DNA from: Auricularia sp. M13
Lineage: Eukaryota; Basidiomycota; Agaricomycetes; Auriculariales; Auriculariaceae
Reading direction: 5' to 3'
DNA: 64,000 nt
Assembly: GCA_037042915.1 (NCBI GenBank)
Contig: CM073197.1
Span: 3,596,001 to 3,660,000 of the forward strand
The notes under the pieces were generated by a model that saw only the letters and a list, made by a program, of their open reading frames with translations, was not told where the DNA came from and searched no databases. This document shows positions 4,393 to 61,133 of the stretch, in pieces; positions within the stretch are counted from its first letter, which is position 1; each line of letters begins with the position of its first letter. A program made the translations under genes and the position numbers.

Positions 4393-4972
4393 TGTATGGC
4401 CCAACTCGCAGCCAGCCTGCGAATTGGGTCCATAATAGCCCCGAAACGCTGGTGCGCCCCGGAACCAGCCGAAGCGCGCACCAGCGGCTCAGGCCTCGAT
4501 TCCGGGCGCGCTTTCACGCGCCAGCGTCAGCCGTATGGAGTCAGCGGGCGCCCGAACGAATCCCGGCGCCGAGACGCGGTCCAGGAGCGCGCGGAGCCGC
4601 CGTTAGCGCCGTTGCTATCCCCGTCGCTGGACACCGTTTCCAGCTGGTACTCATACCCGGGACCGATTTCCCAGTATCTTAGTAACTCAGTGACTCGAAA
4701 TGACTCAGATTTGATACCGCTTTTGTATATAAGAGAGAGAGCCAGGTCAGAATATCATCATTCCCCGAGCAGAGCAGCTCAGAGACAGTGTCACAAAAGC
4801 GGCCATTGAGCCTGAGTGATTAAGCCAATACAAGCTACTTCATAGCCTCGATCTCGCGTTATTCTCACGCGTTTCTTGGCGGCCAACAATCCGATTCTCA
4901 GTATTCAGTAAACGGCGGCTCGTATCATTCTGCCTCCCTGTTCCACAGCAAATCGAACCTACAATCTATACA
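4393..4972 (+). repeat. 5' LTR of gypsy element 1
   Basis: Begins TGTATGG and ends ATACA, the TG...CA termini expected of an LTR. A TATATAA box lies near 4724-4730. Matches the 3' LTR at 21418-21999 apart from a 2 bp indel in the GAAGCGCGC region. Confidence 0.93.
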
Positions 4973-7625: not shown

Positions 7626-10529
7626 AACATGCGATTTACGCCGCAACTACAAATCCAAAGTGCCCCGCGGATTGCGTCAGAGAGCATCAGTGGGGAAAAG
7701 AAGAAGAGAAGAATGAGGACGAGACTGACCATGTAGAAATCTTTACGATCACAAACACGAATCAGCGCCCAGCGCTTTCCTATTACGAGTCCCAGAGCAA
7801 GAGCAAGCCTTCAGCGGAAGGAAGATCAGTCGTCAGCTCTCTACAAGAGGAAGTAGAAGAGCTACGAAAACTCTCACCTGATGAGCGAGACGACAAGAGG
7901 CGCGAGCGCACGCCAAACGAAGAAAGGAAAATCGGAACAGAGCAGTTTGTCGCGACGTTAGCGGATGTCGAGGAAATGGATGACGACAACGGCGAGGTGG
8001 GAGACGAGGAAGTAAGGGCCGAGGAGATCGATTGGGGGAGCGGCGAATACCTGTTGTTCTATGTCCAACCGGACGATGGAATTCTTGCGAGGTCGAACGG
8101 AGACGCGTACGCTCAAATCTACAACATGACGCAGCCGTCAGATGTAGAGCAAGCAGCAAGACAGGAAAACTCACCGCCGATCCGCATTCCGTCGGGCCCG
8201 CGACCAAAAACGGGGAGGCCAACGAAGCGGTACAAGCCTGTAGCCCTCAAAGTCAAGCCAACGTCCGAGCGACTGCCGGAAGACTACCGAGTGGTGAGAG
8301 AAAGGCCAGCAGACTGTATGGATGGGTTACCAGAGCTACCGGAACATCCGCCGGAGTGGAAAGCCACGACTTCGCATCTCTCAGAGGAAAGAATGCGCGG
8401 GTTTCAGCTCGACGAGAGCAGTTTCTTGCTGCCAGAAGAAGTCAAGCTGTTCAAGTTCATAATTGAGCATCATCAATCTGTGTTCGCATGGGAGGAACGC
8501 GAACGGCGCCGCTTCAAGACCACTTACTTCAAACCTATCAAGTACCCTGTCGTGCCGCACGAACCGTGGGCCGACAAACATCATCCTATACCACCAGGAG
8601 TACGAGATCGGCTGATTGAGTTGTTGAAGGCCAAGATCGCGGCAGGAGTCTACGAACCATCAAGCTCTTCGTACCGATCGGGTTGGTTCTGTGTCATGAA
8701 AAAGGATGGGAAGTCGTTACGGATCGTGCACAACCTGCAACGTCTCAATTCAGTAACGATTCGTGACGCGGGAACGTTGCCTACGCCCGACGAATTCTCA
8801 GAATCCTGCGCGGGAAGGACGGTGATCGGCGCGTTGGACCAGTTCTCCTCATACGACTTGCAACTGGTCGACGCGGCATCCAGAGACTATACCACGTTTC
8901 AGACACCCCTTGGACCGTATCGAATAGTGTCTCTACCGATGGGATGGACGAATTCCGTGTCTATTCAGCACGGCAACATTACGTTCATACTGCAGCCAGA
9001 AATGCCCGAAGACTGCGGCGCTTTCATCGACGACATATTCGTGTTAGGCCCGCGTTCGTATTACAAGAAAGACGATGGGACGTACGAGACCATAGCTGCG
9101 AACCCAGGGATACGCCGGTTCATGTGGGAATACGCGCAGAAGTTGAATCGGGTGCTGCAACGTCTCGATCACTCGGGCGCGTCGGTATCGGGAAAGAAGG
9201 CCCAGATCGCAGCACCAGCCACGCTTGTAACGGGCTACACAGTCTCGTACGAGGGGAGAACGCCGCACCAAGAAAATGTGCAGCGGGTGCTGGACTGGCC
9301 GGCGTGCGAAAATGTTCGCGACGTTCGCGGGTTCCTGGGGACAGCGGGCTTGTCACGACTGTGGATCAAGGACTTCGCTCAGAAGGCGAAACCATTGACT
9401 AATCTAGTCAAAAAGGACGTACCATTCGACTTCAACGACGCGTGCCATCTAGCCATGCACATTATCAAACTTGCCGTCGCAACAGCGCCGTGTCTCAGAC
9501 CCATCGATTATCGCAGCGGGAGGGAAGTCATCCTCGCGGTCGATTCTTCGGTGATCGGCGTCGGCTGCGTGCTGATGCAGCTGGGGGAGAAAGGCGAGCG
9601 GTTCCCGGCGCGTTACCACAGCATCACATGGAACGACGTGGAAAGCAGGTACTCACAAGCCAAGTTGGAATTGTACGGCCTATGGCGAGCACTGCGATCG
9701 ATGCGGTTATGGTTGTTCCAGGCGCCGCTGCTCGTTGTAGAGGTCGACGCGAAGTATATCAAAGGCATGCTAAACAATCCGGACATTCAGCCCAATGCTA
9801 CGATAAACAGGTGGATAGCAGGAATCCTGCTCTTCCATTTCAAGCTGCGGCACGTACCAGGAGAAAAGCATTCTGGGGCTGACGGCCTGTCACGACGACG
9901 CGCTTCGCCCAACGATCCGGGAGAATTAGATGATCCTGAGGAATGGCTGGATCATCAGCTGGGCCTGTGGGTCTCTGCGATACTGGAACGACTGGGACGA
10001 ACGCTACCACCGGTCTCAACTGCCGGGAGACGCGTTCAGTACCCGGAGGCGCAATCGGCTCGGGTACGCACGTATTTCAAGTGCCCCGCGGTCGGCGCGT
10101 TCGCGACAACGATGGCGACGCGAGATAATCGCGAAGTCTTGGTCAATCCAAGCGAAGTTGTGATTGTTCCGCCTCGAAATGAAGGGCTGTTAGCAAAAGA
10201 CAAAGAATTGGAGGAGATACGACAGTATCTCACCGATTTCTCGGCACCGGATTGGCCAGATAAAAAGTTGCTCGAATTCGTGCAGAAAGCGAAGCGGTAT
10301 TTCATATTCGACGGGCGTCTCATGAGGAGGGATGATCACCACAAACACCGGGTGGTTATTCTGGATCAGCGACAGCGAGTACGCATCTTGCGAGAGGCGC
10401 ACGACGATTTGGGGCACAAAGGGCCGTTTCCGACAAGAACGCTCATTCGAGAGCGATTCTGGTGGCCTGGGCTAGATGCAGACGTGAGATGGTGGTGCGC
10501 GACATGTCAATTGTGCCAGGAGCGCCAGC
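7568..10529 (+). pseudogene. pol of gypsy element 1, 5' part (RT, RNase H, integrase zinc finger)
   Basis: Open from 7568 until the KDZ transposon interrupts it. Residues about 220-280 are a conserved linker also seen in element 2; RT follows with the active site FIDD at residues 486-489 and a preceding LPMGWTNS motif; RNase H begins near residue 650 (AVDSS) and ends with GADGLSRR; the integrase HHCC zinc finger is at about residues 945-983. The frame has no stop of its own: it now ends in TIR sequence at 10558. Reading continues at 18913 in the same frame once the insert and one copy of GCGCCAGC are removed. Intact apart from the insertion, so non-functional only because it is split. Confidence 0.9.
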
Positions 10530-10923
10530 CACCTGTACCTTACCCTAAAACCCAATAAGTAATGGACTGATCTGAGTGAGATCCGTCCATTGCATATGAG
10601 GGTTTCGAGCTATCACCATTCACAGCTGTATTTCCTCTGTAAATACAGCTGGGACAGCAAAGCCATGGCTCAGTTGGTAAGGTGCTGGGTCGTCGGAGGT
10701 TGAGGCCGCTGTGTCCGCGGCCGGCGCCATGACAAACACCCGGCTCATCGCGCCGGCCATCATCAACACTGTTTGGCATCGTTGCCCGCCGCTGCCCGCC
10801 GCCGCTGTCGTCGTCGTGCCGACGCCGCCGACTCAACACTTCGCCGTTTCACTCCGGAAAAAAAGCGCACATACTAAAGTTTATATAACTAAGCCAATGG
10901 CACCATCTAATAAAATAAATTAT
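10530..10923 (+). repeat. Left TIR of the KDZ transposon
   Basis: About 394 bp matching, in inverse orientation, 18531-18912 with a few substitutions and a small indel in the GTC-repeat part. It contains a perfect 11 bp stem with a 7-base loop (10623-10651) and a stretch TGGCTCAGTTGG (10666-10677) that fits the Pol III A-box consensus. Left-end ORFs here are shadows. Confidence 0.88.
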
Positions 10924-10993
10924 GGGTTTCTGCTCCAGTATAATGATGTTGACTCAGATATATTGTGCTCGGGCTCAAGGGCAAGACTCTGCT

Positions 10994-11059
10994 CATATGC
11001 AATGGACGGATCTCACTCAGATCAGTCCATTACTTATTGGGTTTTAGGGTAAGGTACAG
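10994..11059 (+). repeat. Extra internal copy of the KDZ right terminus
   Basis: This 66 bp block repeats, in the same orientation, the outermost part of the right TIR (about 18844-18909), ending at GGTACAG but without the final GTG. It lies 70 bp inside the left TIR, so the interval 10530-11059 is itself bounded by inverted termini like a short non-autonomous derivative. Confidence 0.75.
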
Positions 11060-11291
11060 CAGGGTGCACTTGCATGCTCACACATAGAAAGTACGAGACA
11101 AGGTCATTCTATTGGCGGCCATGTAAGTCTAACGGCGGGTGAGGGACATGGTGCATGACAGAAGCGGCAGAGCAAGACAGAGCATGAATGAGGACGGCAT
11201 AGGGAAACTACGAGACATAGGTGATAGAGGGACAGCGCGACGTGCGCGCGGAGGCAGGCTCGCGCGGAGAGCGCGCGCTGGCGCGCGCGCT

Positions 11292-12831
11292 CTAGTCGCT
11301 GCCGCCGTCGCTCTCCTCCTCGTCACCGCTGCCGGGGTCGCTCTCCGGGTCGCTGGGCTCATCGCTGCTGGCGCGCGTTGCGGCGCGCTTCCGCGGTGCG
11401 CGCTTCGTCTTCTGCGTCGGCTTGCGCGCGGTGTCCTCTTTCTCCGCAGTCGGCGAGTCGTTGGCATTTGTCTTACGAGCCTTGCGTGGGCCGCGTGGCA
11501 CGCCCGCGTCACTGCGCTTCTTGCGCTTCTTAGTTGCCTGCTTTTCCGGGGCCACCCAGTCGGGCACGAGCTCCCAATGACACTCCTCGGTGATCAGCTT
11601 CGTACAAGACGCGCAAGTTGTCGACACCGGAGATGCTGGCCGGTTGGCAAACAGGGCCAGGGAGCCACCCAACCAGCCGGACACCATGCTTCTGGACGAC
11701 GGCCTGCTCGTACGAGGCGTAATTGATCGCCTCCTGGGGCGCGGCGCCTGCGTAGCGTTTGTCAAGGATCTGCGCTGTAAAGCTGTCAGTGTTGCCATAG
11801 AAGAAAAAGCCGGGCTTTGCGCACCGTAGGTATTCTGCACGAGGCGCCGGATGTCCTTGACGAGGTCGGCCGACGACTTCTTGTTGATGCCGAGCACGCC
11901 TGCACAGACGCGTTAGCAAACGCAGAAGATGAAATGAATCCACGTACCGCGAACACCGCCGATGCACCACATCTCGAAGAGCGAGAGGATTTGATCCAAT
12001 GTCTTGCCCAGGATAATGTTGAAGAATTGCGACACGGCGGGCGAGCAAGCGTAGAACGGCTGGATTGTTTGGAAGGGATCGGAGCGCGCGCAGAAGAAAA
12101 CTCCCTTCGCGCCGGTGCGCACTTCGAGCGTCTCAATCTAAGCAAGGATGGTCAGTAAGTGGAATATGGCATCGGGCATGCAACACACCTCATGCCCGAT
12201 GGTCCTACAAACGTAGGAGACGTCTTGATTCTCGGCCTGGCGGTTGACACGTCTCTCGACGTTCTTCTTCGCCTGGAACTCATTGTACTCTTGTATCCAG
12301 GCGTCCTTGACCGCGTCGGGCTCGTCCTTGTAGACCTTTTCCTCGCTTTTGATGGTCTCGAGGATCTCGCTGAGCTTGAGCTTTCGGCCGCGAGCCTCGA
12401 CGGCCTCGTCTGAAGAGCAATAAAATATTAGCCATAATAAAAGCAGAAAACAGGCTGCACTTACCAGAGTTAAGCTCCTCAGAGCGGTGGTGCACATAGG
12501 CGTGCCAGATGCGCACAGTCTTGATGCGCGAGCGAGTGATGAAGGCTTTGCCCTTCGAGCCGCCGAAGACGCGCGAGCGCACGTAGGACCGCGTTCTAAT
12601 GGTATCGAGGCATGAGCAACACATCATTGAAAGCAGGTTAAAAGAAGACTTACTTGCCAAATTTTTCGGCCGCTTCGTCGCAGCGTGAGTAGCTCGGTGA
12701 CGATTTCCTCGATGGCGATGTTGAGCGCGTGGTTGACGCCAGCCTGTTTTGCGCTTTTTGTTCGGGTCAGACGGTGCACGCCTGCCCGTGGGCTTGAAGG
12801 TCCTGCGCTTGGTCGTGAACGTCAGCGGCAT
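11292..12831 (-). pseudogene. KDZ accessory gene B, broken
   Basis: Start taken at the ATG at 12831. Several short introns are clear (for example between 12656 and 12594, 12475 and 12417, 12188 and 12139, 11946 and 11899, 11823 and 11775), and the exons read a protein with a charged helical middle (motif around SEILETIKSEEK), a conserved-looking part with GVFFCARSDPF and NNILGKTLDQI-like segments, a segment around KHGVRLVGWLPGP, and a basic, acidic-ended tail. Single-base shifts are needed near 12745, near 12675 and near 11612 to keep the recognisable frame, so I call it a pseudogene. I recall similar proteins as companions of KDZ transposases in mushrooms, but function is unknown. Confidence 0.55.
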
Positions 12832-12972
12832 AGGAGGGGATGCGTGGGGATGGGGAAAAAAAAGGATGGTTGGCTCGGACTTCAAATACCATGTTCTCCC
12901 GATGAGCACGGGGCCACCACAAAGACTGCACAAATATCACTAGAATTTTATTGGGAAGAGGCAGGCAGGTGA

Positions 12973-14170
12973 CTACTGAAGAGAAAGAACTCCATATCCG
13001 GCATGCAAATCTTCACAATATGCCCAGAGAACTTGTGCCGCGTGACGAATACAATAATCGCTGCCGCACAGCGCCTCGTACATGTCCACCTCGTCGTGCC
13101 CAGCGAGAATGTCAATGAGCTGCCTCTCGTCGCCCTCCTGGAGTGCAAGGTTGGCAAGCACAAACGGGAGGTGCGGCGAGCTGACGGCTTTGGGTGCTGG
13201 TCCGCTGCAGATTCGGCGATGGAGCGCGCAACCTGGCGAAGCTCGGTGACGCGTTGCGAGTGCTGGGTACGGGGTGCAGTACAGCGGCATGCCGGGCATG
13301 TCACAGGGGGAAGGGTGGGTGCGGGGCGTGGGGTGCGCGTGGCGAGAAGGCTGCCCGTGGGAAGCACGGCAGAAGGGCCAGAAGTCGCGTCAGCGTGGCC
13401 AGCCGTGGAGTCAGCACGGCTCGGGCTGCGTGAGCGGGCTCCCGCGGGGTCGAGAGGCGCCCTGCTTGTGGGCGACGTAGCATGCGTGCGGTTGCTGTGG
13501 ACTGGCGAGACGGGGCGAGCGTCAAGAGTATTGTCCGATGCGGATGTGGATGGGAACGATAAATCAGAGACATTTTCGAGGTCGGAATCGTCGGTCCTGA
13601 TGGTGGAAGACGCGGCGGAAGAGAGTCGTGGGCCGGAAGAGTGATTTTGGGCATGATAGTGCGCGAGATCCCAGGGGTAGAACGAGTCCTGCAACTCGCG
13701 GCACTTTCCACAGAATAGAAGACCGTGACGGTCGAATAATTCCTCAATAACCTCCTCATCTGAAGAGCGCGAAGGACTGGGGGATGGCGGGGGAGTGGGA
13801 GACGAGGGTGACGATGTTGTGGACGGCGGTGTGAAGCGTACGGCTGGACGGGCAGCGCTGCTGGCCGGACGCGTTGCGCGACGAGCCGATGCATCGCTGG
13901 GCGCTGGGCCCCTGTTATCGCGCAGAGCCGGACGCGCTGGGCGAGCGGCCAGCGTCTCCCACTCGCTGGATGTCGGAGGCGGCAGCACGGGCAGCGGTCG
14001 TTGCGCTGCTGCTCGCGTCTTAGAAGACGCACTTTCTGGGTGTTTCTACGAGGTGTCAGGCATGTAAAAAGACGAACGTTGTATCAACACACCTTCGCAC
14101 CGTCACTGGTGCGCATATTTTGAAGTTGACCGTCTGCAACGGCCGGTGAACGCGCGCAACCTGCAGCAAG
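12973..14170 (-). pseudogene. KDZ accessory gene A, broken, start uncertain
   Basis: A minus-strand frame runs from an exon near 14160-14095, across a short intron (GTGTGT at about 14093 to the AG at about 14047), into a long proline/serine/alanine-rich frame ending in a segment with CGKCRELQDSFYPWDLAHYH (a CX2C followed by histidines, possibly metal binding) and a CPACRC motif. Near 13180 the frame must shift by one base to reach a conserved-looking C-terminal part (LIDILAGHDEVDMYEAL...) ending at about 12973. I do not know the family or the true start; upstream exons may exist as far as 14700. It sits tail-to-head between transposase and gene B. Confidence 0.4.
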
Positions 14171-14954
14171 TCAGCAAATCGACAAAGCGAGAAAATGCGC
14201 ATCCTCTGCGCACGAAACGCTGCGTATAGCCAGTGGGTATAGGCAGCGCTCGTTGCGCAGCGAATGCGCGCGGTTGTGTGGACATACGCTGCCGTCGGTC
14301 GAGGTTGGTCAGGAGCAAGCAGCCCGTCGGCTCTTTCCGCATCCTCTCGCCCTGCTACTTGTTGCACGCAGGGAGATTGGATGCACCAAAGGACTCGTCC
14401 TCTTAGATTTGCTTTTACGATTTGTACATCTGCAAGTTGCCCGAGTTTCGAGAAAATCGGGCGAACGGTTCCAGTGATGCCACACCACCGACTTCAGAGT
14501 GTCTTTGTGCATAGCAGCACTCTGGCTGAACCATAGCATAATCCAACACGAGGAATTTACTTTGAACGAGCTAATTGATAATCTCCGTAAAAAATTGGGC
14601 CATATTGTTGACGCTATACTAAGAGTACAATCGATGTGTGTTGCAACAAGACCACAAGAAACCACCTCAATTTCCCAGTGGATTCTTGCTGCACTCATGG
14701 CAAACTGCAGGGATACCATCTGTTAACATATATGGTCGAATTGGTCACGTTTTCGAGTATCCCTGGGCCCCAATGCTTGGGCTCGAGGTTGGGGAGCTCT
14801 GCATTGTACGGAGCGTCTTGTACTTTGCAGCTCAATGTGTCGGCCAGCTCTCTTGTGTCAACTTGGAGACCACATTCACCAGAGGCACGCCCATGTGCAC
14901 AAGCATTGAACTACGTATATTGAGCACGGTACGGACTTCACAAACGCGGGTAAG

Positions 14955-17900
14955 CTACGTCTCATCTAACTCTACAATAAAGTCCTCGATGGCATGATAA
15001 TCCTGGGCGCGTTCTTCGTCCTCGTCATCTTCGTCCTCGTCGTCCTCGCCGACGCCCACACCCACATCAATAGCCGCGCTCGCGCTGCCTTCGCCGGGGC
15101 TGTTGGTTGTCTGGTCTCGGCTGCTGTCGAGGCGCGATCCGGGCATAAGAGCCCCAGCGAACATTGGGAACTGACGCGCCAGCTTGCTGAGGCGCTGACG
15201 ATGGATGTCGTTGACGGACATGCGGCGTAACATGAAGTGGTGCAGCTCACGCGCGAGCGGCGCGTTTGTTGTGGTCAAGTTGGCGTGCACACGGCGCATG
15301 TCGTCTTCCTCGTTCGACATTGCGGTAACGAGGCGCCGCATCTCGACGCGGCAACGCACCAGCTCCTCGCGTGCACGAGCGAGCTTGTGGTATTTTACTG
15401 CGGCCAGGCGGTTTGCGGATTGCGCCCAAGGCCGATTGGCAAGGTCCCCGCCGCGCGTGTGACGCAGGAGCTCGAACTCCTGCAGTTGCGTCCACTCCAT
15501 CAGCGTGCTGAAGTCCACAGGTTGCGCGGCGGCGTCAGCGCGCAGCAGCGGCATTGTTGTACTTTGTCACGGCGGTGCGAATAGCGCGGGACCTCGCCTT
15601 GAGTCCCTTTCCGATAGCCTCGCGCATTTTGTAGCCTGCAATAAAAAATGTGAGCAACTTGCGCTGAAGCGGTGAAAGTAAGGCATACCTGTGCCAAACG
15701 CGTGCGCCTTCGCGAGCTCGAACATGCGCTGGACCATCAAGAACTCAAGACGGTCCAGTGCTGGCGTCGCCAGCTGCGCTCGCTGGTTTTCCTTTGCGCG
15801 GCGATGTACTGCTCGTCGTCGGGCTGCCAGCGTTGCTCACGCCAAGTGCAGACTCGAGCGCGACCGCCGCATCGAGTGCCGCGGTATATTTCTTGTACGC
15901 ATCCGGCGCTCCTTGTTGCGTTTGCGGATATCGCTGGGTGACAGCCGGTCGCGCGCAATCTCGCGCGCGCTGACGGCAGGCGGCGACAGCCCGGTCTTGA
16001 AGGCGCGAAGGCAGTCTTTCATCTTTAACCTGAAAAAGAGGCGTTAGAGCTGGACGAGAACACGAAGCAGCTGACGCACTCAAGTTGCGCTAGCTCCTCG
16101 AGATGCTCAACGTAATCCATCTCGAGCACATCGCGCTCAGGTTCGGCCGTAAGATTCTCGAGGTAGGTGAGCTCATCGTTGAGCCACCCCTCGATGTCGT
16201 TGTCTGTGTACCCGGTGGTCTCTTGGAAGCTCTTCAGCGACGGCGCGAGTTCGGCAATGATACGAAACGCCTGGACAACGTTGTTGTAGATGAATTTACC
16301 TAGTTGAAACGTCAGAATAGAATAAAAAAGAAATAGAGCGGTGACTTACTAAGATCCATGTACTTGTCATCGTCCCATTGCTTCAGGAAAAGGTCGAGGA
16401 ATTGCACGTAGTGGAAGTACGAAGCATGTCGCACGAGAGGCGCGACAGCGTTAGACGCCGAAAAGAAACGTTCGCAGGTTTCCAAGTCTTCCAGACCAAA
16501 GCCCTTGCGATACAGGGGGTGGTGCTTGAGCTGGCAGAGGCGGTTATGGCCGTATCCGTGGAACGAGTTGAGGCCAAAGGACACGTTCGCGAGACGCCGA
16601 CGCCGCCCAGACAGCTGCGCGACAACGTCCCTTGAAACGCGCAGCCGATATCGTATCCCACGTAACGGTCTCGAAGACCAACGTTGAGCATCTGCGAAAC
16701 AATCCGAGCCGTACTTGGCGCTGTTGTCTCGTCAGCTTGGAACAATGAGATAAAAAGCATTAGTACGTACAGCTCACCGCTCCGGACCATCTCCGTATAC
16801 CAGAGCGGAAACCCGTGCCTGCATAGGCATACGAAAATCCCCGTTTGGTCGAAGAGGCCAGGCGCCGTCTTGAAGTGCTCGGCCTTGGCGTTTTTCCATC
16901 GCTGCGAGCAGACTGATGGCGATGGCGCGTCATCGCCGGGTTCGCCTGACTCGCTGACCGTATGCCACTGCTGCTCGTCGGTTTCCGTTGCTGGCTGGAG
17001 ATAGTGAGTAAAGTGCCATAAATTAGACAACGCGTGCAAACCTTGCGACCGGGCTGAACGCGGCGTCCGACCTCGTTCGCGTACAGGTCAATGTGAGAGG
17101 TTGGGACGCGACGCCGACTCAAGACGCGCCCGTCTGCGCGACCTGCGGCGGCGCTGCGTTTGAGCGATTGGCCGCCGTCCATGGCCACCATTGCACCGAT
17201 GTCGAGCTGCTCCTCGTCGTTTAGCTGCTAACGGGTTAGAATGATCTATATACGCGCAGCGCGCTGTGAACAAAAGCCACGCGCTCACCTGGTAGCTGCA
17301 GCTCGGGCAGACATTCTTGGCGCGCCAGTGCGGCGCGTCGCGACCCAGCGCGCTCGCGATGCGCCGGTCGACCTCTCTGAGTATCGCCAGGTAGACATCG
17401 ACGGCCTGCGCAAACTGCTCGCGCAGATGCGGCCGGTATGCGCACTGGAGAACCGTGAGCAGCTGCCTACCTGTCCTAGAACACTAACGTACGTTATACC
17501 TATCGCAGAGAGCCCGCACAAAGGGCTGAATGCCGAGTCGGGGTGCGTGACGCCGAAGCCGGTGATAGAACTCCAGGAGCCCGATGGAAATGGCCACAGT
17601 GGGCTGCTTTGGCGTGCAGGCCGAGCAGGCCAACGGCCATGAGGGCGAGGATGGGGTGCTGGCCGTCACGGTACGGTACAAGATATTCATGAACATAATC
17701 TAGACACAACGTCAGCAAGCGAAGCAAGGAAAATGTATTTGCGTACCCGTGTCGCGGACTGCGTTGATCACAAAGCAGGGCACCGCGTCAGGTTCCTCGT
17801 CCTCGCCGGGCAATGGCGTCTGCGCGGAAGGCGAGCCGGCAGAGGTTGGCGGGTCGGCGCTGTGCTTCCATTGCAAGTAGGCGTCCACGAGCGCTGGAAG

Positions 17901-18459
17901 GACAGAGTCCCAACCAGCCTGCTCGGCTTTTATCTGGTCGGCGCGGGTGCGCGTGTCATCGCGGGTCTTGTAAGGAACACTGGGAACTCGTGGGCGGGTG
18001 CTATAATCAACAGCGGAAGATGCACGCACCACGTTGGCAAGAACCCCGAGTTGCTGGCATCAGTCAGCTGGACAGGGGCTCCAGCGCTGCCTCCTTGCAG
18101 TGTATCGGTGTATGGCTCATACGGATTGAATAGAAACGGTTCGTTGTCGTCGACCCACTGTCCGTCGTCATCCGGTTGAACAGGGTCGCGAGCGCGCGCG
18201 GCATCGAGCTCTTGTTGCATTTCTGTGGCGGCTTGTTCGTCAGCAACGTGGCACGGCAACAATGGTGTGGCAGATGCTCACGGTGAAGCGTCTTCTGACG
18301 CTTTGACACCTGAGCGGTGTTCTCCTTCTCGATTGTAGCCAGGCTGCGCACATGACGTCCGGTCCGTTTGGGCATCACAACGTCGACGCCAGGAGGGACA
18401 TCACATATGCGGGTAGGGTGCCAGACATTTTTGCGGGATAGCACACTTGTCCGCTTCAT
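14955..18459 (-). pseudogene. KDZ transposase, multiply frameshifted
   Basis: Start at the ATG at 18459; ten or so introns of about 45-60 bp interrupt it. Family motifs seen in order: an N-terminal segment with RTRADQIKAEQAGWDSVLPALVDAY (split over codons near 17960-17860), KQPTVAIS near 17600, the CPSCSYQ zinc motif near 17300, AMVAMDGGQSLKR near 17180, RWKNAKAEHFK and FDQTGIFVCLCRHG near 16890-16810, the conserved YDIGC at 16641-16655, FHGYGHNRLCQ at about 16531-16563 and LEDLETCERFFSASN near 16455-16495. The C-terminal part (GYKMREAIGKGL, WAQSANRLAAVKYHKL) ends at ELDET before a stop at 14955. One-base shifts are needed on both sides of YDIGC, at least three times in the exon 16030-15690, and twice near 15545. 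It is therefore a pseudogene, though homology is unmistakable. Confidence 0.85.
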
Positions 18460-18530
18460 GTTGGACAAGAGTGCTTCGGAAGTTTATCCTCTCTCAGACA
18501 ATATGTAGCAGTAGACAGCTATAATTTATT

Positions 18531-18912
18531 TTATTAGATGGTGCCATTGGCTTAGTTATATAAACTTTAGTATGTGCGCTTTTTTTCCGGAGTGAAACGG
18601 CGAAGTGTTGAGTCGGCGGCGTCGACGACGACGACGGCGGCGGCGGGCAGCGGCGGGCAACGATGCCAAACAGTGTTGATGATGGCCGGCGCGATGAGCC
18701 GGGTGTTTGTCATGGCGCCGGCCGCGGACACAGCGGCCTCAACCTCCGACGACCCAGCACCTTACCAACTGAGCCATGGCTTTGCTGTCCCAGCTGTATT
18801 TACAGAGGAAATACAGCTGTGAATGGTGATAGCTCGAAACCCTCATATGCAATGGACGGATCTCACTCAGATCAGTCCATTACTTATTGGGTTTTAGGGT
18901 AAGGTACAGGTG
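18531..18912 (-). repeat. Right TIR of the KDZ transposon
   Basis: Inverse copy of 10530-10923, about 382 bp, ending GGTACAGGTG against the duplicated GCGCCAGC. Confidence 0.88.
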
Positions 18913-19981
18913 GCGCCAGCGTACCGTTGTGCGAATTCCGCCGACAGTCGCAAGGATCGCGACGCTGTTCCAGAAGGCCTACATGGACACGATGTTCATG
19001 CCACTCTCCAACAAGAGGAAAGCAATCGTCCATGCACGTTGTTCTTTGTCCTCGTACCCGGAATTCCGAATTCTATCGCGTGAAACCGCGGACGCGATCG
19101 GCAAGTTCATCCTCGAAGATTTGCTCTGTCGATGGGGCTATATTTCAGAAATCGTGACGGACAATGGCACCCCCTACGTGGCAGCGTTAGATTGGCTCGC
19201 TGAGAAGTACGGAATAAGGCACATACGGATCTCGGGGTACAATTCCCAAGCAAACGGCGCAATCGAGGCAAAGCATTACAGCGTCCGAGAAGCGATCGTA
19301 AAGCTATGCGACGACGACATTTACAAATGGCCAGACGTAGCTCACCTCATCTTCTGGGCGGAGCGTGTGACGATCCGAAAAACAACGGGGATGTCGCCAT
19401 ACTATATGGTCCACGGCGTGGAACCTGTGCTGCCCTTCGATCTCGCAGAAGCGACGTTTCTCTCACCAGCTATGGAGCCTGGGATGACAACGGAGGACCT
19501 GATCGCGACCCGCGCGAGGCAGTTAGCGCGACGACCAGAGGATCTCGCAGCCGCGCGCGACCGCGTCTACGCCGCCCGGTTTAGTTCACTTCGTCAGTTC
19601 ACAGCAAAGTACGGACACACCATCAAGGACTACGATTTCAAGCCCGGCCAGCTGGTCATGGTAAAGAATACCGTTGCGGAGGCCGAGATCGGATGGAGGA
19701 AATACGAGGACAAGTATTTCGGACCGCAGGTCGTGATCAAACGACACCGCGGCGGCTCGTACGTTCTGGCCGAACTAGATGGCTCGATTGCGATGTTACG
19801 TTGCGCAGCGTTCAGAGTCGTTCCGTATTATCCACGGCTGGACGCGATATTTGATATACGAAGTATATTGGAGGAAGGGCGCCAGCGCCTAGAGCAGTTG
19901 GAAGACGACGACATACACGACGGCCCGAAAGAAATGGATGACGAGGAAGTGGAGGAAGAGGTCGCAAACGAGCGGCAGTGA
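18913..19981 (+). pseudogene. pol of gypsy element 1, 3' part (integrase core and C-terminus)
   Basis: Continues the frame broken at 10529. It holds the integrase catalytic residues: D in AYMDTMF, D in IVTDNGTP and E in NGAIEAKH; 34 residues separate the second D and the E, as in element 2. A C-terminal part with FGPQVVIKRHRGGSYVLAELDG follows, then an acidic tail to the TGA at 19979-19981. It ends 23 bp before the stop of the convergent antisense gene. Confidence 0.9.
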
Positions 19982-20004: not shown

Positions 20005-21286
20005 CTAGGTGTAATGGGTGAGGCGTTCGGAGCTCTGCTCGATCAAGTCAAAGAGCGCCTCTGCGAGGCGGATGAGCTGGCCGAGCGGGTCGAGGAGGTC
20101 GCGCCCGCGCAGGTCGCGGATGAACTGCTCGCGAGCGGGCGGGATATCGCTGGCCAGGTTGCCAGACTGCTCATCGATGTAGGAGCGGCTCTCGAAGAGC
20201 GACGACGCGCGGACCCGCGACTGGTACACGCGGTGATGCTTGCCCTGCAAGATCTTGTACGCGGTCGCGCAGGGGTGGCAGGCGTCGATCAGAGCCTGGA
20301 CGAGAGACGGATGAGCAAGAAAATACTACGAGAAAAATAGGAAATCATACCAGAACGATGTCCGCGTCATGAATGAAGTCGTAAAGCACCTGACCCTCGG
20401 GAGCGGCGACTTCGGGATGGAACCGAGGCTCGGCGCGGAGCAGCTGCTGTGCGAGGTGCTCGATGGCCTCGATAGCTGAGAACCCGTCCTGGACGCGCGG
20501 GAAGAGCTCCCAAGCCGCGTACGGGCCCCGGAGGTTTGAAGCGGCGTGAAGGTCGCGAACGGAGCGCACAATGTCGTATAGCTGTGCCTGTGCACGGTCA
20601 ATGGTTACCGCACAAAGAGGAAAATATCACACACCGCCTGAGAGTGCTTGCGACGGAGCCGCGCCTCCAGGGCATCGATACGGAGGCGGCTGAGCCGATT
20701 CTGAACCTCCTCGCTAGCCTGAACGAGGTTCGTAGCGACGATGGGCTCGGGCTCGCCGATGGGAGTTCCAGCCTCGAGAGGGGGAGGAGACGTTGAGGGA
20801 GCGGAGGAAGGAGTAGACGTGCGGGACGTTGCGCGCTCGTCTGCGGACGGATACGGCGTCCTAGGAACACGTGTTCATCAGCAAACTGATCTGCGCGCCC
20901 AAACAAACGAGGAATCAAAAGACGCACCCGCGACGCCTGCTCTTCGGTTTGCAGACCTTGAACGGATGCGCTGCGCACCCAATACAGCTGGGCTGCTCGC
21001 GGATGGGCTCGAGAGAAGGCTCTGGAACGGGAGCGGCCTCTTCGCCCGGAGCGATGTTGACGGACGACGGCGGATCTTCGGAAACGATGATTGCCGTGAA
21101 CGCGCCAGCATCATACAGGAGCTGCGCCGCCGCAGGCGTCAGACCCGAGTCAACGGCGCCGGGCGCGCGGTCGGTGGCCCAGTCCATGAGCTCGTTGTCG
21201 CCCAAAAGCAGAGAGAGGGAGGTAGCGGCGGCCGGCGCCTCAGAAGCAGTGAATGTAACGGGCGTCTGCGCAGCGGACTGAGCCAT
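20005..21286 (-). CDS. Spliced antisense gene of gypsy element 1 (370 aa), function unknown
   Basis: Exons 21286-20928, 20860-20635, 20587-20351 and 20295-20005 join to 370 codons plus TAG with no defect; introns are 47-67 bp, GT-AG, in phases 2, 0, 0. Start is the ATG at 21286; an in-frame upstream TTG is not needed. The protein has an acidic N-terminus, a small Cys/His cluster C101-X2-C104-X2-H107-X4-C112 followed by a basic stretch, a proline/serine-rich linker, and a helical C-terminal half. Element 2 has a homologue at 59237-60435 with the same four exons and phases, a Cys/His cluster at the same place, and a last exon of identical length (291 bp). A TATA box lies about 80 bp upstream, beside the 3' LTR. 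I do not recognise the domain; a nucleic-acid binding or regulatory role is only a guess. Confidence 0.85.
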
Positions 21287-21362: not shown

Positions 21363-21417
21363 TTTTTTTTATAGGCGACATGGTCAGGGACGACCATGAT
21401 TTCAAGTGCCCCGCGGA
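21363..21417 (-). promoter_or_regulatory. TATA box and conserved block of the antisense gene (element 1)
   Basis: On the minus strand GTCGCCTATAAAAA is followed about 80 bp later by the antisense ATG. The block from the TATA to the LTR edge is conserved in element 2 (GTCGCCTATAAA, CAGGGACG, CCCCGCGGATG on the respective strands), whereas the leaders between TATA and ATG differ. The block also occupies the place where a polypurine tract is expected, but it is not purine-rich. Confidence 0.6.
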
Positions 21418-21999
21418 TGTATGGCCCAACTCGCAGCCAGCCTGCGAATTGGGTCCATAATAGCCCCGAAACGCTGGTGCGCCCCGGAACCAGCCGAAGT
21501 GCGCGCACCAGCGGCTCAGGCCTCGATTCCGGGCGCGCTTTCACGCGCCAGCGTCAGCCGTATGGAGTCAGCGGGCGCCCGAACGAATCCCGGCGCCGAG
21601 ACGCGGTCCAGGAGCGCGCGGAGCCGCCGTTAGCGCCGTTGCTATCCCCGTCGCTGGACACCGTTTCCAGCTGGTACTCATACCCGGGACCGATTTCCCA
21701 GTATCTTAGTAACTCAGTGACTCGAAATGACTCAGATTTGATACCGCTTTTGTATATAAGAGAGAGAGCCAGGTCAGAATATCATCATTCCCCGAGCAGA
21801 GCAGCTCAGAGACAGTGTCACAAAAGCGGCCATTGAGCCTGAGTGATTAAGCCAATACAAGCTACTTCATAGCCTCGATCTCGCGTTATTCTCACGCGTT
21901 TCTTGGCGGCCAACAATCCGATTCTCAGTATTCAGTAAACGGCGGCTCGTATCATTCTGCCTCCCTGTTCCACAGCAAATCGAACCTACAATCTATACA
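21418..21999 (+). repeat. 3' LTR of gypsy element 1
   Basis: 582 bp, TGTATGG...ATACA, matching 4393-4972 except for an added TG. Followed by the duplicated GCAT. Confidence 0.93.
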
Positions 22000-33482: not shown

Positions 33483-34071
33483 TGTATGGCTGGCTGCGCG
33501 GCCAGCCTGCGAACCGTCTCAACGCCGGCGCTTGCGTCGGATTCAGCCGAAGTAATGTTTCAAGCTACCAAGTAGTCCGCCCCTCGAAGATAATATTATT
33601 CACATGCTTCACTAATCATAGTCGGCTCCGCTCGCGCCCGGAGAACGACTGGGGAACCGAGAAATACGGCCTGTGATTACGGATTTAGGCTGGTTGCTGG
33701 CCTGTTGCCAGCAACTGTCTCCACCATGTACTCATTTCCGCGGCTCCCGCAACCTCACGGACGCGTCTCTGACTCTCTCTGACTTGTTTATGACTCGAAG
33801 TTTCAGTATATAAGGACCAGTTCGAGTAGGATAGCAATAACAACGGCTCGGAGCCCAGTTCACCCATCAGCAGCACAATCGAGTGCTTGAGCAGAATCCA
33901 AGCTTTCCCCTCTAGTCCTAGCCTTTCTAAGTCGTTCTCAATCTCTTAGCTCGTCCGAAGCGGCGGCCAACTGCGCGGATTTCGAGCAAAAGAGCATATA
34001 TTCAAGAATCAGTATTACAGAATTCTCCAGCGGCCTCTCAGTCCCTGAAGCGCGAACTTGCAATCTATACA
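33483..34071 (+). repeat. 5' LTR of gypsy element 2
   Basis: TGTATGG...ATACA, TATATAA box near 33807. Near-identical in length and sequence to 60545-61133. The LTR of element 1 shares the ends and scattered blocks (GTATGGC, CAATCTATACA) but is otherwise diverged. Confidence 0.93.
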
Positions 34072-34567: not shown

Positions 34568-36973
34568 CACCCGGGTGTCAGCACATCACAGGCTAAAAAG
34601 CCTTGGTGATGGGGGGGGAGTGACATGGCATGTTTCCCTCAAAACGCTACTGAGATACCTTCGCGAATAAAACCGCGAATATCTCAAAAGCGCACGGCCG
34701 GGGAGAAGTCCCGGCGGCAGAGGTGACGTGCTGGGCACCGGGGGCACATGTCATCGCCCCGGATGCGCCGGGATTGCCCCCGCCGCCCATCAACGTCGCG
34801 CGCTGCCCATCACCGTCGTCGTCATCGTGCCCGCCGTCGCTGACGATGACCTCCCGCTGGTGCCCATCCGCTCAGAGTTTAATATATACATATATATACC
34901 AATATAACCGCAAATTAAAGAGCTCTTTCACATGGGATAGTTGAGATACATGGAGTGAGGCTGCAAAGGAGCTACACGGCAGTTCATGTTCTCAGGCACA
35001 ACGGATAAAATACCAGGACATTTGGGCGACAGTACAGCCTGTATTGATGCGCGCTCTCAGTATATATGACCACCCATACTTCTCCTTGCTGGAAGGGGTT
35101 TTTCATAGACAGTATTGGTCTGAATATTGCCGGAAAGCTGGCAGAAGCATCTCCCAGGTCTGTAGCCCGTTCTATGAGTGTGATATTCTTCCCTGCATCC
35201 CCTCACATTTATACACACTGTATAAGCTGATACAGGGCTTTTATAAGAGCTAATTACGTCGGAACCGAGTGCTCTGGCCGTTATCACACTGTCAGACACT
35301 CATGGAGTTCAGACCCCTCCACTGCTATATAAGGGGAATCTGAAGGTTTATTTCTCTTGAAAAGGGCTCTCATACCAGGCATTTACAGTAGGAGAACAAT
35401 TGCAGGTGGGATAATGGTCCAGTGAGACAAACTTTGCTGCAGTCGGGATGTTCAATCTTTCGACCACATAACACGCTCATTACCTCACCCAGTGCTCTAA
35501 GGTTACTACATTAGAGTGAGTTCAATATTATTAAGGATTTTGAATGGTGAGAATGCGTCTAAATCTCATGGAAAGAGCACAGTGCAATGGTCTGCTATTT
35601 GCCCGAACTCAGCACCCTACGCTCAAACCTCAATCAAATAGACTTTTACTGCAGTAAACATACACCGGTACTGGTCTTTACATTGTGTGAGAAGTTACCT
35701 GACAATCGGCTGCGAGTTGCTGTCGCGGTGCATGATTTGGGTGGTTTGCTCGCTCTTGTGCTTGTACCGTACGGTGCTCAACACCAAATTTCAGTTCTTG
35801 TCCCCTCTGCACCAAACTCTGGCCACAGCTTTCTCACTATGAGCTGACCCTCTGGTCGAAATATTGGGTCTCACACGGCCGTTGTGATCTATCCATGCAC
35901 TCATTATGCTCGATGTTGAGGGCCTCTGAGCGCGCGCGGCTTATATCTCTCGCAATTCCGAACGCCCTACCTGTATATCGGCGGAGCACATCGCACAGTA
36001 CCATCTCAATGGGACGCCAGCCACTACAGTGCATTTTTTTCCCTGGCCAGCATGTGGTGCCCAGTTTCTTGCTGGCAGGTGGACACATATTCTCGATTTT
36101 CACCTGCTCTGAAAAATATCTGGCGCTCTGGATGCCTGTTCAACATAGTACACCATTACCCAGACCCTTTATACGATGGTGCCTTGGCTCCAGGTCTCTG
36201 CGGCTGTTGCTCCTGCTCGGCGGAATTGAGGCAACTACCGTATCCTCTGGTCCCTTAACGACGAGACCAAGGCTATAACGGAGCATCGAGCTCTTCGAGG
36301 CGCCTCTACGGACATTGAGGAGTTAGAAAGACATGTTGTTACGGCGTTGGACCATGCCCTGCGGTCGACACACCGTCCGCTGAGCGGTGGTAGTGACAGC
36401 ACGCAAGCATCGGACACCAGTCCAGTTTCCTACACGCTGATTACAGTCAAGTACATTGTGTGTCCTCATACCACCGGATTATGTGATATTTGAGCCACCA
36501 TATAGGCAATCTTCTTGTCCTATAGCCACAATGTCTTGTAGTATGAATGTCATCCTTTGCAAGCACTTTTGTCAGTCACAGGGAATCTGTATATCGAGTA
36601 GTTTATTCAATGTGAAAGAGCTCTAATTTGCGGTTATATTGGTATATATATGTATATACCAAACTCTGAGCGGATGGGCACCAGCGGGAGGTCATCGTCG
36701 GCGACGGCGGGCACGATGACGACGACGGTGATGGGCAGCGCGCGACGTTGATGGGCGGCAGGGGCAATCCTGGCGCATCCGGGGCGATGACATGTGCCCC
36801 CGGTGCCCAGCACGTCACCTCTGCCGCCGGGACTTCTCCCCGGCTGTGCGCTTTTGAGATATTCGCGGTTTTATTCGCGAAGGTATCTCAGTAGCGTTTT
36901 GAGGGAAACATGCCATGTCACTCCCCCCCCATCACCATGGCCTTTTAGCCTGTGATGTGCTGACACCCGGGTG
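34568..36973. mobile_element. 2.4 kb DNA element with 365 bp TIRs, no transposase seen
   Basis: Starts and ends with the palindromic decamer CACCCGGGTG; TIRs 34568-34932 and 36611-36973 match with few differences. The 8 bp duplication AAGCGCCA (34560-34567, 36974-36981) interrupts the gag frame of element 2, which reads through when it is removed. The 1.7 kb interior has only short frames without recognisable protein. Long GC-rich TIRs and 8 bp duplications fit hAT, P or KDZ families; I think a non-autonomous KDZ- or P-like derivative is possible but unproven. Confidence 0.8.
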
Positions 36974-38381: not shown

Positions 38382-38420
38382 TTTTTTGAGTGTCAGTACT
38401 CCACTAACGACGCCTCCCAG

Positions 38421-46422: not shown

Positions 46423-46466
46423 CGAGCTGGAATTGCCGCGAGACATGAGGAAGCGGGATCCATCCG

Positions 46467-48104: not shown

Positions 48105-48176
48105 GCGAACCGATACTCCATCTCCGTACAAGTTTTCTATCTGTGGCGACTTGCAGTACAAGCCGCGGAGGGCGTG

Positions 48177-53330: not shown

Positions 53331-53412
53331 AACCTCGGAGATACCATCATTTGCATGAGCACACTGTACATTTCTTCGTTTCCAGATACATTGCAGCTAC
53401 TACACACAGTTA

Positions 53413-58612: not shown

Positions 58613-58715
58613 CGGTCGAGCGAGCGCCTCAAAGCCCGATCACCAAACAAACGGCTAACAGCGAGACCCAGGTGGGTGACCTGATATTAGCGCTCGTTAT
58701 CGTGCATGCCCCTTG
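58613..58715 (-). repeat. Right TIR of the 5.5 kb transposon
   Basis: Inverse copy of 53228-53330, ending GCATGCCCCTTG against the duplicated CGCCGACC. Confidence 0.9.
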
Positions 58716-59207
58716 CGCCGACCTGAAGATCTCGCGGCGGCACGAGATCGCGTGTATGCTGCGCGATTCAAATCACTACAGCAGTTCAAGGAAAAGTACA
58801 AACACACCATTATAGATTACGATTTCAAGCCGGGAGAGTTGGTCATGGTGAAGAACACGGTTGCAGAGAACGAGATCGGTTGGAGGAAATATGAGGACAA
58901 GTATTTCGGGCCTCAAGTGGTCATCAAACGCCACCGTGGCGGATCATATGTATTGGCCGAGCTCGATGGCTCGATTGCTATGCTCAGGTGTGCTGCCTTT
59001 CGCATCGTACCTTACTATCCGCGCCTGCGAGAGATTTTCGACATATCCGATATATTGCAATCGGGTAGCGAAAGGCTGCGTGACATGGAAAAGGACGACA
59101 TACGGAATGGACCCCGAGAAATGGACGATGAAATGATGGAGGAAGCAGAAGGAATGGAAGGCGGCGGAAGAACAGAACTGGGAAACGACCCGGGTATACG
59201 AAACTGA
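58716..59207 (+). pseudogene. pol of gypsy element 2, integrase C-terminus
   Basis: Resumes the frame cut at 53227. FGPQVVIKRHRGGSYVLAELDGS is shared with element 1 (motif split here at nt 58905-58970), followed by an acidic tail and TGA at 59205-59207, 29 bp before the end of the convergent antisense gene. Confidence 0.88.
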
Positions 59208-59236: not shown

Positions 59237-60435
59237 TCAGGTGTGGCGCTTGCGGCGTTCGGCGTGCGCAAGGACGACGCCGTTCACGGCCTCGAGCGCC
59301 TGAATAATGTTGCCGATCGGAATGGCAACGGCGTCCGCGGCAAGACCCGTTATGAGCTGCTCACCGGCAGGAGCGATGTGGCTCGCAAGCACGTTGCCGT
59401 CCTCATCGATGTACAGTCCCTCCTCATACAGGGAACTGACGCGGCGGCGTGCACTCGCGATAGTACGGCGTACGGAAGCCAGAGCGCGACGGCCCTCAGA
59501 GGAGCGCGTAGACATCCGAATCATCTCCTGTGAACGGGTATTAATCAGAAAGGTTGAATAAAAAGAAGAAAAACGACGCACCGCTGCGATCTCCATGTCG
59601 TGGAGATGATCGTAGACCGTCTGTCCCAGCGGCGCAGCCAGCTGCGGATGGTAGAATAGCTCGGCACGGAGAACCTGGCGGGCGAATGCTTCGGCGGCGT
59701 CCACTGCAGTATGCGAGTCGTGGACGGCGGCGAAAGCTGCCCATGTATCATACGACCCCCGCGGCGCACTGCGGCGGGCCTGCATGTGGACAGCGAATGC
59801 TATATCAGAACTCTGCTGCCGCTGCGTCAACGACGAGGCGCTGCGAAAATAAGGGGGACATACGAGAGCGCGACCAGCGTGCGGACCAAAAGTGGTACGG
59901 GTGTGACCGTTGCCCTCGACGTCGAGCGCCGTGAGGTGCGTCGCTAGCTCCTCGCGGGCGGCCTCCTGGACCTTCGACTGGATGGACTCCTGGTCCGACG
60001 CGGAAACAAGAGACGGGAGAGAAGCGTGCGACGACGTCGTGGACGCCGCGCGGACGGACGTGGGCGGATACGGAGTCCTGATCGCCGATCAGGGATCTGC
60101 GGGACCTGCGCCCAAACAAAGGAGTGCACGTACCCAGCTCGTACCCTAGCGCCGCATCCCTCGTATGCGTGTCCATGATGGCCGGTTGGGCAAGAAAAGC
60201 AGGCGTCCTCCGGCGCTCGCGGCCTGCGAATGATGAACGTCGCCGGCGCACCGCTGTTGTACACAACGTACACTGGGCCAGCCGGAAGATTGCCGACAAT
60301 ATCTCCGATGTCAACAGCGGGCTGCGCGGCCCACTGCATGTAATCGAAGTTGTCCCCGGCCTGCGGGAACGTCACGGGCACAGCGTCGACAGGAGCCGGT
60401 GATGGCGAGTTCGCTCCGTACTCGGGTGATGCCAT
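59237..60435 (-). CDS. Spliced antisense gene of gypsy element 2 (348 aa), function unknown
   Basis: Exons 60435-60134, 60077-59864, 59821-59582 and 59527-59237 give 348 codons plus TGA with no defect; introns 42-56 bp, GT-AG, phases 2, 0, 0 as in the element 1 copy. Last exon is 291 bp in both. Cys/His cluster C79-X2-C82-X6-H89-X4-C94 precedes a basic stretch at the end of exon 1, as in element 1. Exons 3 and 4 align by residues such as the HP-X6-PXGQ.VYD.-HD motif and SYIDE/LYIDEDGN, but overall identity is low, so the gene has long been maintained while diverging. Start is the ATG at 60435, about 60 bp after a TATA box. A regulatory or capsid-related role is conceivable; no family is recognised. 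Confidence 0.83.
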
Positions 60436-60493: not shown

Positions 60494-60544
60494 CTTTATA
60501 GGCGACTTGGCCAGGGACGGCCAATTATTTAAGCACCCCGCGGA
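60494..60544 (-). promoter_or_regulatory. TATA box and conserved block of the antisense gene (element 2)
   Basis: Minus strand GTCGCCTATAAAG, the same core as at element 1, with the conserved block (CAGGGACG, CCCCGCGGATG on the plus strand) filling the space to the 3' LTR. Confidence 0.6.
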
Positions 60545-61133
60545 TGTATGGCCGGCTGCGCAGCCAGCCTGCGAACCGTCTCAACGCCGGCGCTTGCGTC
60601 GGATTCAGCCGAAGTAATGTTTCAAGCTACCAAGTAGTCTGCCCCTCGAAGATAATATTATTCACATGCTTCACTAATCATAGTCGGCTCCGCTCGCGCC
60701 CGGAGAACGACTGGGGAACCGAGAAATACGGCCTGTGATTACGGATTTAGGCTGGTTGCTGGCCCGTTGCCAGCAACTGTCTCCACCATGTACTCATTTC
60801 CGCGGCTCCCGCAACCTCACGGACGCGTCTCTGACTCTCTCTGACTTGTTTATGACTCGAAGTTTCAGTATATAAGGACCAGTTCGAGTAGGATAGCAAT
60901 AACAACGGCTCGGAGCCCAGTTCACCCATCAGCAGCACAATCGAGTGCTTGAGCAGAATCCAAGCTTTCCCCTCTAGTCCTAGCCTTTCTAAGTCGTTCT
61001 CAATCTCTTAGCTCGTCCGAAGCGGCGGCCAACTGCGCGGATTTCGAGCAAAAGAGCATATATTCAAGAATCAGTATTACAGAATTCTCCAGTGGCCTCT
61101 CAGTCCCTGAAGCGCGAACTTGCAATCTATACA
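60545..61133 (+). repeat. 3' LTR of gypsy element 2
   Basis: 589 bp, TGTATGG...ATACA, about five substitutions from the 5' LTR. Followed by the duplicated TCAT. Confidence 0.93.

Follow-up and report, generated by a model that had tools for sequence, protein, structure and literature searches.

An intron-bearing antisense gene for a probable zinc-knuckle protein, and a linked hairpin, in a clade of Gypsy elements from Auricularia sp. M13

Among the genes that are encoded antisense to the remainder of a retroelement, HBZ of HTLV-1 lies near the 3' LTR, has a spliced form and carries a bZIP domain. In Gypsy elements, antisense ORFs between pol and the 3' LTR have been reported from plants and, as brtn, from the element Boty of Botrytis cinerea, and their function is given as not known in the relevant passages of the source (PMC7264820); brtn is also mentioned in a part of PMC8365987 where a consensus lacks its start. 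The plant representatives comprise gene23 of Grande, RIRE2 and the TRP28 ORFs of Retand (passages of PMC11963269), and gene23 has its own promoter according to sections of PMC7264820 and PMC11963269. The word "intron" is absent from the main text of the latter two papers, and the passages of PMC5408684, PMC8220671 and PMC5689174 that touch on the subject contain no spliced antisense gene, the spliced ORF3 messages of rotifer elements in PMC5408684 not being called antisense there. In the open PMC papers searched, neither a spliced antisense gene nor one from a basidiomycete was recognised.

The gene described here, from Gypsy elements of the basidiomycete Auricularia sp. M13, resembles brtn, going by the published descriptions of the latter, in belonging to a fungal Gypsy element, in being antisense to gag-pol and in lying between pol and the 3' LTR. 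With gene23, RIRE2 and TRP28 it similarly shares its strand, its position and its presence in most copies. With plant Gypsy elements and Boty already known to carry antisense genes, it is a variant rather than a new kind, and the impression of novelty for a fungal gene of this type, voiced in a preliminary description of the locus, has to give way to the prior existence of brtn (passages of PMC7264820 and PMC8365987). Unlike brtn, with its startless consensus, the gene is characteristic of an entire clade of elements. What further sets it apart from the plant antisense ORFs is the presence of a CCHC knuckle, of three or four introns and of an associated hairpin, and the lack of a match to PF04195. 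Like HBZ it is an antisense gene near the 3' LTR; unlike HBZ it gives no bZIP match, and a TATA box presumed to belong to it lies outside the 3' LTR, in which the antisense promoter of HTLV is placed in a passage of PMC7264820.

The window, a stretch of 64,000 nucleotides from contig CM073197.1 (positions 3,596,001 to 3,660,000; coordinates below are those of the stretch unless a locus is named), contains two such elements on the plus strand. Element 1 is bounded by LTRs at 4393..4972 and 21418..21999, with the target duplication GCAT seen by eye just upstream of the first and just downstream of the second, and element 2 by LTRs at 33483..34071 and 60545..61133, with TCAT, again by eye, just downstream of the latter. 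The LTR pair of element 1 shows no substitution and two gap positions, that of element 2 five substitutions, and those of two further copies, hereafter the C1 copy and the C2 copy, one and two substitutions respectively. Target duplications of 4 bp were recognised by eye in the flanks of all four elements, which are recent, real insertions. The LTR start of the C1 copy (L017 from 9525) and of the C2 copy (L019 from 8838) contains an inverted repeat with 12-bp arms (CTCGATTCGCAG/CTGCGAATCGAG). In element 1 an insertion with terminal inverted repeats of ~395 bp (10528..18914) splits the integrase region, and the sense frame for the integrase core and C-terminus occupies 18935..19981 on the plus strand. 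Element 2 harbors three nested insertions (34568-36973, 38035-48527 and 53228-58715), two with inverted repeats and one with 351-bp direct repeats that are 99.7% identical and a reverse transcriptase inside; past the insertion at 53228-58715 the integrase C-terminus resumes on the plus strand (58715..59207).

Between the integrase and the 3' LTR, both window elements carry a minus-strand gene of four exons. In element 1 these are exon 1 with the start codon (21286-20928), exon 2 (20860-20635), exon 3 (20587-20351) and exon 4 (20295-20005; 291 nt with the stop codon), which are separated by GT..AG introns of 67 nt (20861..20927, phase 2), 47 nt (20588..20634, phase 0) and 55 nt (20296..20350, phase 0) and encode 370 aa with no internal stop. 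In element 2 exon 1 with the start codon (60435-60134), exon 2 (60077-59864), exon 3 (59815-59582, with a few bases of uncertainty at its 5' edge) and the 291-nt exon 4 (59527-59237) are likewise joined across GT..AG introns and encode 346 aa in the model used; an alternative 3' splice site, noticed by eye, renders intron 2 ambiguous by a few bases and gives 348 aa, and reading frames that need fewer introns also stay open in this interval. Intron phases 2-0-0, the 291-nt last exon and a Cys/His cluster closing exon 1 are common to the two genes. On all these points, as on the coordinates and on the gag of element 1 being broken (it has a frame change), the preliminary description is borne out; its claim of defect-free joining stands for the 370 residues of element 1, but its 348 residues for element 2 require the alternative splice site. 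The TATA box that it placed in abutment with the LTR is indeed present as TATAAA on the minus strand of both elements (21368..21373 and 60495..60500), 65-87 bp upstream of the antisense start codon, but as it stands 45 bp outside the 3' LTR it is near the latter rather than abutting. TATA strings occur in some lineages only, none being found in the C1 copy or in lineages C and D defined below, and the antisense promoter is presumed from them. A gap of 23 bp in element 1 separates the end of the sense integrase frame (19981) from the antisense stop codon (20005), so that the genes are arranged tail to tail without overlap.

Comparison of element 1 with the C1 copy revealed a third-position excess of differences in every exon: the counts at codon positions 1/2/3 are 17/9/28 in exon 1, 12/3/39 in exon 2, 5/4/40 in exon 3 (binomial p 5e-12) and 12/2/38 in the 88 codons of exon 4, and the corresponding dN/dS values are 0.27, 0.09, 0.03 and 0.07-0.08. 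Chance ORFs in GC-rich DNA are ruled out by these codon-position counts. Introns 2 and 3, unlike the exons, have drifted past alignability, with 18/38 and 25/55 aligned bases kept. Intron 1 is unusually conserved, keeping 50/58 aligned bases; a block within it, TTTGTTTGGGCGC, is common to element 1 (20861-20927), the C1 copy and element 2 (60078-60133), and is possibly a conserved non-coding signal. Against the C2 copy, element 1 has dN/dS of 0.07 in exon 3 and 0.165 in exon 4, and the dN of exons 3-4 (0.118) is below that of pol (0.191). Overall, dN/dS is 0.03-0.23 for exons 2-4, 0.27 for exon 1 and 0.34-0.36 for pairs with element 2, all these ratios being approximate as synonymous sites are often near saturation. 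The same tendency is seen in the other lineages, for which fixed codon blocks were used and the exon boundaries in a number of C and D loci were modelled on those of a relative: the best-frame dN/dS is 0.10 and 0.07 in lineage B (a third exon has saturated dS), 0.07-0.21 in C and 0.09-0.23 in D. An open antisense frame is common to the members of each of 17 exon pairs; the ratio ranges from 0.07 to 0.23 in 16 of these pairs, and dS is saturated in the other. On the sense strand, 15 of the same 17 pairs are without a common open frame and the other two give dN/dS of 0.9 and 1.7, whereby a sense-strand gene in the same interval is ruled out. These substitution patterns indicate that the antisense gene is under purifying selection. 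An alternative in which the antisense transcript acts as RNA, by way of dsRNA, small RNA or silencing, and the protein is incidental would accord with the discussion of antisense RNA as a control of retroelements in a passage of PMC7264820; however, it does not predict third-position bias and low exon dN/dS while introns 2 and 3 drift, and is thus extremely improbable.

The state of individual copies is more varied. Among 17 gene copies seven were modelled as complete and open, three are broken and seven are without a full model. In the C1 copy the frame is broken within a run of C in exon 4, where a base-calling error is possible, and L043 looks by eye to be frame-broken at the knuckle. The C2 copy, which inserted recently, has lost exons 1-2 and the knuckle with them; as it moved with only exons 3-4 open, the knuckle may not be required in cis. 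A spliceable short frame in this copy (L019 7980-8880) has seven residues joined in frame to exon 3. The antisense gene of element 2 (59237-60435) has changed far more than the pol of that element: relative to element 1 it has a dN of 0.70 and dN/dS of 0.36, against a pol dN of 0.26, with exon 3-4 proteins 36% alike and pol 68% identical, and relative to the C2 copy its dN/dS is 0.34. The C2 copy in the same comparison has 79% for exons 3-4 and 75% for pol. The gene of element 2 thus looks as if it had been swapped by recombination or were fast-evolving. The preliminary description had deduced selection from the gene being clean in both window elements while gag is broken, an argument that carries little weight, as these copies are young, with near-identical LTRs, and an intact frame in one or two of them means little; moreover, the C1 copy is frame-broken and the C2 copy is without exons 1-2. 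Its conclusion, that the gene is part of the element and under selection, is nevertheless upheld by codon-level constraint between lineages, conserved introns, a constant strand and place and co-inheritance with the integrase, and dN/dS between copies, which it had proposed to compare, is well below 1.

A search of the 52.1-Mb genome (14 contigs) with the integrase recovered 116 matches, and the 30 loci examined, with 1.5-kb flanks, were grouped into lineages A (4), B (2), C (5), D (5) and E (12) and the singles L024 and L026. Codon periodicity with phase shifts is apparent in B, C and D. With a pair gene model the antisense strand had the higher score in 12/12 loci (for example A 144.5 vs 46.5, B 98.1 vs 33.2, C 54.0 vs 4.8, D 41.0 vs 6.7), the lead being narrow in one of them, L036 of lineage E (84.1 vs 79.7). 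Under a harsher intron penalty antisense led in 11/13 loci, the order being reversed in L043 (22.9 vs 29.1) and L047 (29.4 vs 44.5) and the scores close in L040 (11.1 vs 9.9); the integrase matches of these three loci are shortened, and hence the stretch probably includes sense integrase coding. An HMM of exons 3-4 detected a minus-strand match in 15/30 loci at E 5e-5 or better, seven of which had supplied its seeds and eight of which are independent, and a sense match only once, at E 0.33. The matched loci are 15 of the 16 in A-D; the remaining one, L035, corresponds to element 2, in which a nested insertion intervenes before the gene. There was no match in L026 or the 12 E loci within the 1.5-kb flanks, and L024 is full of stops. 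BLASTP of the exon 3-4 proteins in a database of eight sequences connected B with D (5e-16), A with B (3e-9) and B with C (1e-9), and hhalign gave 95.9% for A-B, 97.3% for B-D, 86.1% for B-C, 68.6% for C-D, 24.7% for A-C and 10.6% for A-D; the homology across lineages is thus linked through B, direct matches of A to C or D being weak.

In a midpoint-rooted integrase tree of 30 rows, a branch with support 100/99 sets apart 17 rows, those of A-D together with L024, and L026 and lineage E fall outside the A-D clade. Since the gene and the hairpin considered below belong to one integrase clade, the simplest history would be a single acquisition of both before the A-D split. The placement between pol and the 3' LTR is seen in the window elements and the C1 copy; at the other loci, where LTR pairs are unmapped, the gene is antisense and downstream of the integrase. 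Within this one genome it occurs in most copies of the family with conservation at the protein level. Matches to four lineage queries across the genome, of which the best candidates were scored, fall in A-D elements except for three weak ones outside known elements (C1:5617065, C1:5655724 and C2:2562759), which are near-identical and partly degenerate, and the expectation of the preliminary description that homologues sit in elements is in this genome correct but for these degenerate relatives. Two of them, L071 and L072 (C1:5617065 and C2:2562759), are 99.7% identical over 3.5 kb and contain a degenerate relative of the gene with a knuckle-like CPFCPSSSRGHGGC. These matches, with no pol in the 15.5 kb around one of them, might be taken to mean that the gene is a captured, hitch-hiking host gene or that its homologues are ordinary host genes. 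As the other scored matches lie in A-D elements, the gene and the integrase share one clade, and the constraint persists across lineages, such a history appears very unlikely.

Some further observations concern the relatives of this clade. The loci of lineage E (L036-L039, L041, L042, L044-L046, L048-L050) have downstream of the integrase an antisense two-exon frame with a Cys-rich start, which is outside the reach of the A-D HMM and is frame-broken in several copies; comparison of L036 with L049 gave a third-position bias of 6,4,15 and 11,6,19 (p 0.006 and 0.012). L026, the nearest A-D outgroup in the midpoint-rooted tree, possesses in its single copy a 251-codon sense frame downstream of the integrase, and neither gene nor hairpin within 1.5 kb. 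Beyond this genome, a protein-database search with the integrase found 572 relatives, the few named ones among the 120 listed being agaricomycete (Pleurotus, Leucocoprinus, Sanghuangporus), and an IMG/VR scan with the integrase found no relative. The antisense protein had no relative in two protein-database searches with length limits that excluded single-exon pieces; these filters, and probably gene prediction as well, make such negatives weak tests.

Introns spliced from the genomic RNA of a retroelement are expected to be lost, and antisense introns to persist; those of the present gene could have been spared because reverse transcription acts on genomic RNA of the opposite strand. Complete stop-free models with GT..AG introns were obtained for L025, L027, L028, L030 and L031, that of L025 including near its start a 5-nt exon that is implausible and probably wrong. 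A phase-2 intron follows the knuckle in these five loci and in both window elements. The last intron, in phase 0, falls in one alignment column in five A-D representatives (positions by eye), 15 residues past the start of a GQ motif or its equivalent, and corresponds to intron 3 of element 1. The middle phase-0 intron is common to A, C and D and absent in B.

The knuckle is a Cys-Cys-His-Cys motif on the minus strand, CX2CX2HX4C in element 1 (20951..20986) and CX2CX6HX4C in element 2 (60154..60201), with CX2CX3HX4C in L028 and L040 of lineage C and CX2CX6HX2C in B. CX2CX4HX4C, the canonical spacing of the retroviral nucleocapsid knuckle, is found exactly in L030 and L031 of lineage D. In an alignment of five representatives, the C, C, H, C and P of the knuckle and nine further residues including the start Met are invariant; this alignment and the profile searches made with it used draft models for C and D, which are a few junction residues off the final ones. 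The profile recovered ten weak matches up to E 1 among solved structures, most of them CCHC or Gag proteins, the best being 5o2u (Capsid protein p24; E 0.0016, chain residues 364-474), and the others TUT4, three ZCCHC8, two Gag polyproteins, a Gag-Pol fragment, IscB and RECQL4; the lineage D protein by itself, likewise in a draft version, matched no solved structure. In Pfam there was no match to zf-CCHC, TRP28 (PF04195), bZIP or another DNA-binding family, and one of the five members matched zf-C2H2_10 at 0.0026. The structure prediction that the preliminary description hoped would show a zinc-binding fold was of no use, AlphaFold on three window sequences yielding poor, mostly helical models (pLDDT 43.5). 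Despite the Gag chains among the weak structural matches, the arrangement departs from that of nucleocapsid proteins: the knuckle precedes the conserved domain, while in the Gag of element 1, which has a knuckle of its own, it follows the N-terminal part; its spacing varies in A-C; and it is encoded on the other strand. An origin of the antisense protein from Gag is ruled out, as the 15-column knuckle alone aligns. The pattern of conserved residues suggests that it is a probable zinc-knuckle protein.

The gene is accompanied by a hairpin or palindrome ahead of the 3' LTR, with 6-bp arms and the loop AGGGAC, at 21380..21397 of the plus strand in element 1, 20 bp upstream of the LTR, and with the same loop at 60507..60524 of the plus strand in element 2. 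Its consensus is NTGGYC-RRGGAC-GRCCAN at 20 bases ahead of the 3' LTR, the loops being AGGGAC, GGGGAC or GAGGAC. Among nine distinct sequences 54/54 pair cells are formed and two pairs change on both sides, the covariation being 0.343 against 0.078 in shuffled sets (0/500 as high). Four of the six pairs never vary, two of the five measures used are unexceptional (52/500 shuffles as high for both-side changes, 169/500 for further pair types), and so are the folding energies of six hairpin regions (z -0.30 to -1.95). A pseudoknot of the loop with a downstream CCCC was considered and dropped, as the loop of lineage B does not fit. The pattern is present in the same 15/30 integrase loci as the gene and in both window elements, and was not found in lineage E (12/12 loci) or L026 within 1.5 kb past the integrase match, a distance that may stop short of the 3' LTR, unlocated there. 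In 52 Mb the exact pattern has 20 sites, against 2 for a reversed control: 17 are beside the gene family, two in non-autonomous elements and one, L054, in unrelated sequence resembling an ordinary coding start. As the hairpin and the gene share one clade, their co-occurrence may be inheritance only.

The two non-autonomous elements, L066 (C10:269136) and L070 (C11:1410674), are ~3 kb long with LTR pairs ~2.7-2.9 kb apart and keep the hairpin together with the LTR edge. That on C10 has identical 354-bp LTRs and shares with element 1 the primer-binding site TGGTGACCACC, and its internal part, searched whole with tblastn, has no pol or antisense match; neither element has an HMM match below E 0.5, L070 being covered in the 1.5 kb ahead of the LTR. 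The many-exon sense gene to which the pair model gave the higher score (94.6 vs 56.5) was taken to reflect repeats and rejected as a real gene. Retention of the hairpin in gene-less elements makes it look like a cis-acting sequence needed for mobility, and in these elements it may serve other proteins.

We consider it highly probable, judging from the sequence comparisons above, that this is an accessory gene of ancient standing in the elements, with a knuckle protein that operates in trans on their nucleic acid, perhaps on the hairpin. Antisense transcription would presumably start just inside the 3' LTR and head toward the integrase, and the mRNA would be spliced at three or four introns to encode a Cys-Cys-His-Cys knuckle, likely to bind zinc, followed by a domain of ~170 residues. 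The gene would have been kept by purifying selection since before the A-D split. As the target of the protein the hairpin is the best candidate, although we put this forward only tentatively: in the sense genomic RNA it would occupy the 3' end of the internal region, where its binding might aid packaging, reverse transcription or export.

The same location also allows the hairpin to be seen as a part of plus-strand priming or 3'-end processing, which would be read by the reverse transcriptase/RNase H or the integrase and be unrelated to the antisense protein. Its situation 20 bp before the 3' LTR and near the expected polypurine tract, the very short purine run (~4-6 nt, by eye) ahead of the LTR and the joint retention of hairpin and primer-binding site by the C10 element are in keeping with this; the absence of the pattern from lineage E and L026, with related integrases but no gene, speaks against it, though this comparison is confounded by clade. 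It is a serious possibility that still falls short of being probable. Alternatively, the protein might be a nuclear regulator of the HBZ kind that binds DNA, possibly at the palindrome next to its own promoter, and tunes transcription of the antisense or sense strand or limits copy number. In the window elements the antisense TATA box and the LTR do flank the palindrome, and both HBZ of HTLV-1 and gene23 of plants are described as nuclear antisense products in passages of PMC11963269 and PMC7264820. However, the palindrome is outside the LTR, occurs once per window element with none at the 5' LTR, and persists in non-autonomous elements that lack the gene, lineages C and D have no TATA string, and the protein matches no bZIP or other DNA-binding Pfam family, all of which make such a regulator rather unlikely.

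Returning to the reading of a trans-acting knuckle protein, its fullest form is that the two strands of these elements divide the labor, the sense RNA supplying gag-pol and the 3' hairpin, the intron-bearing antisense gene supplying a zinc-knuckle protein that would recognise this hairpin, and non-autonomous relatives surviving by the hairpin alone; this remains somewhat doubtful as a whole. Clear constraint, introns that would betray a genuine mRNA, a recognisable knuckle, and a hairpin in cis that covaries and is retained in gene-less elements together give this antisense gene a function that can be tested. More generally, its conservation suggests that introns can outlast many rounds of reverse transcription when they reside on the other strand.
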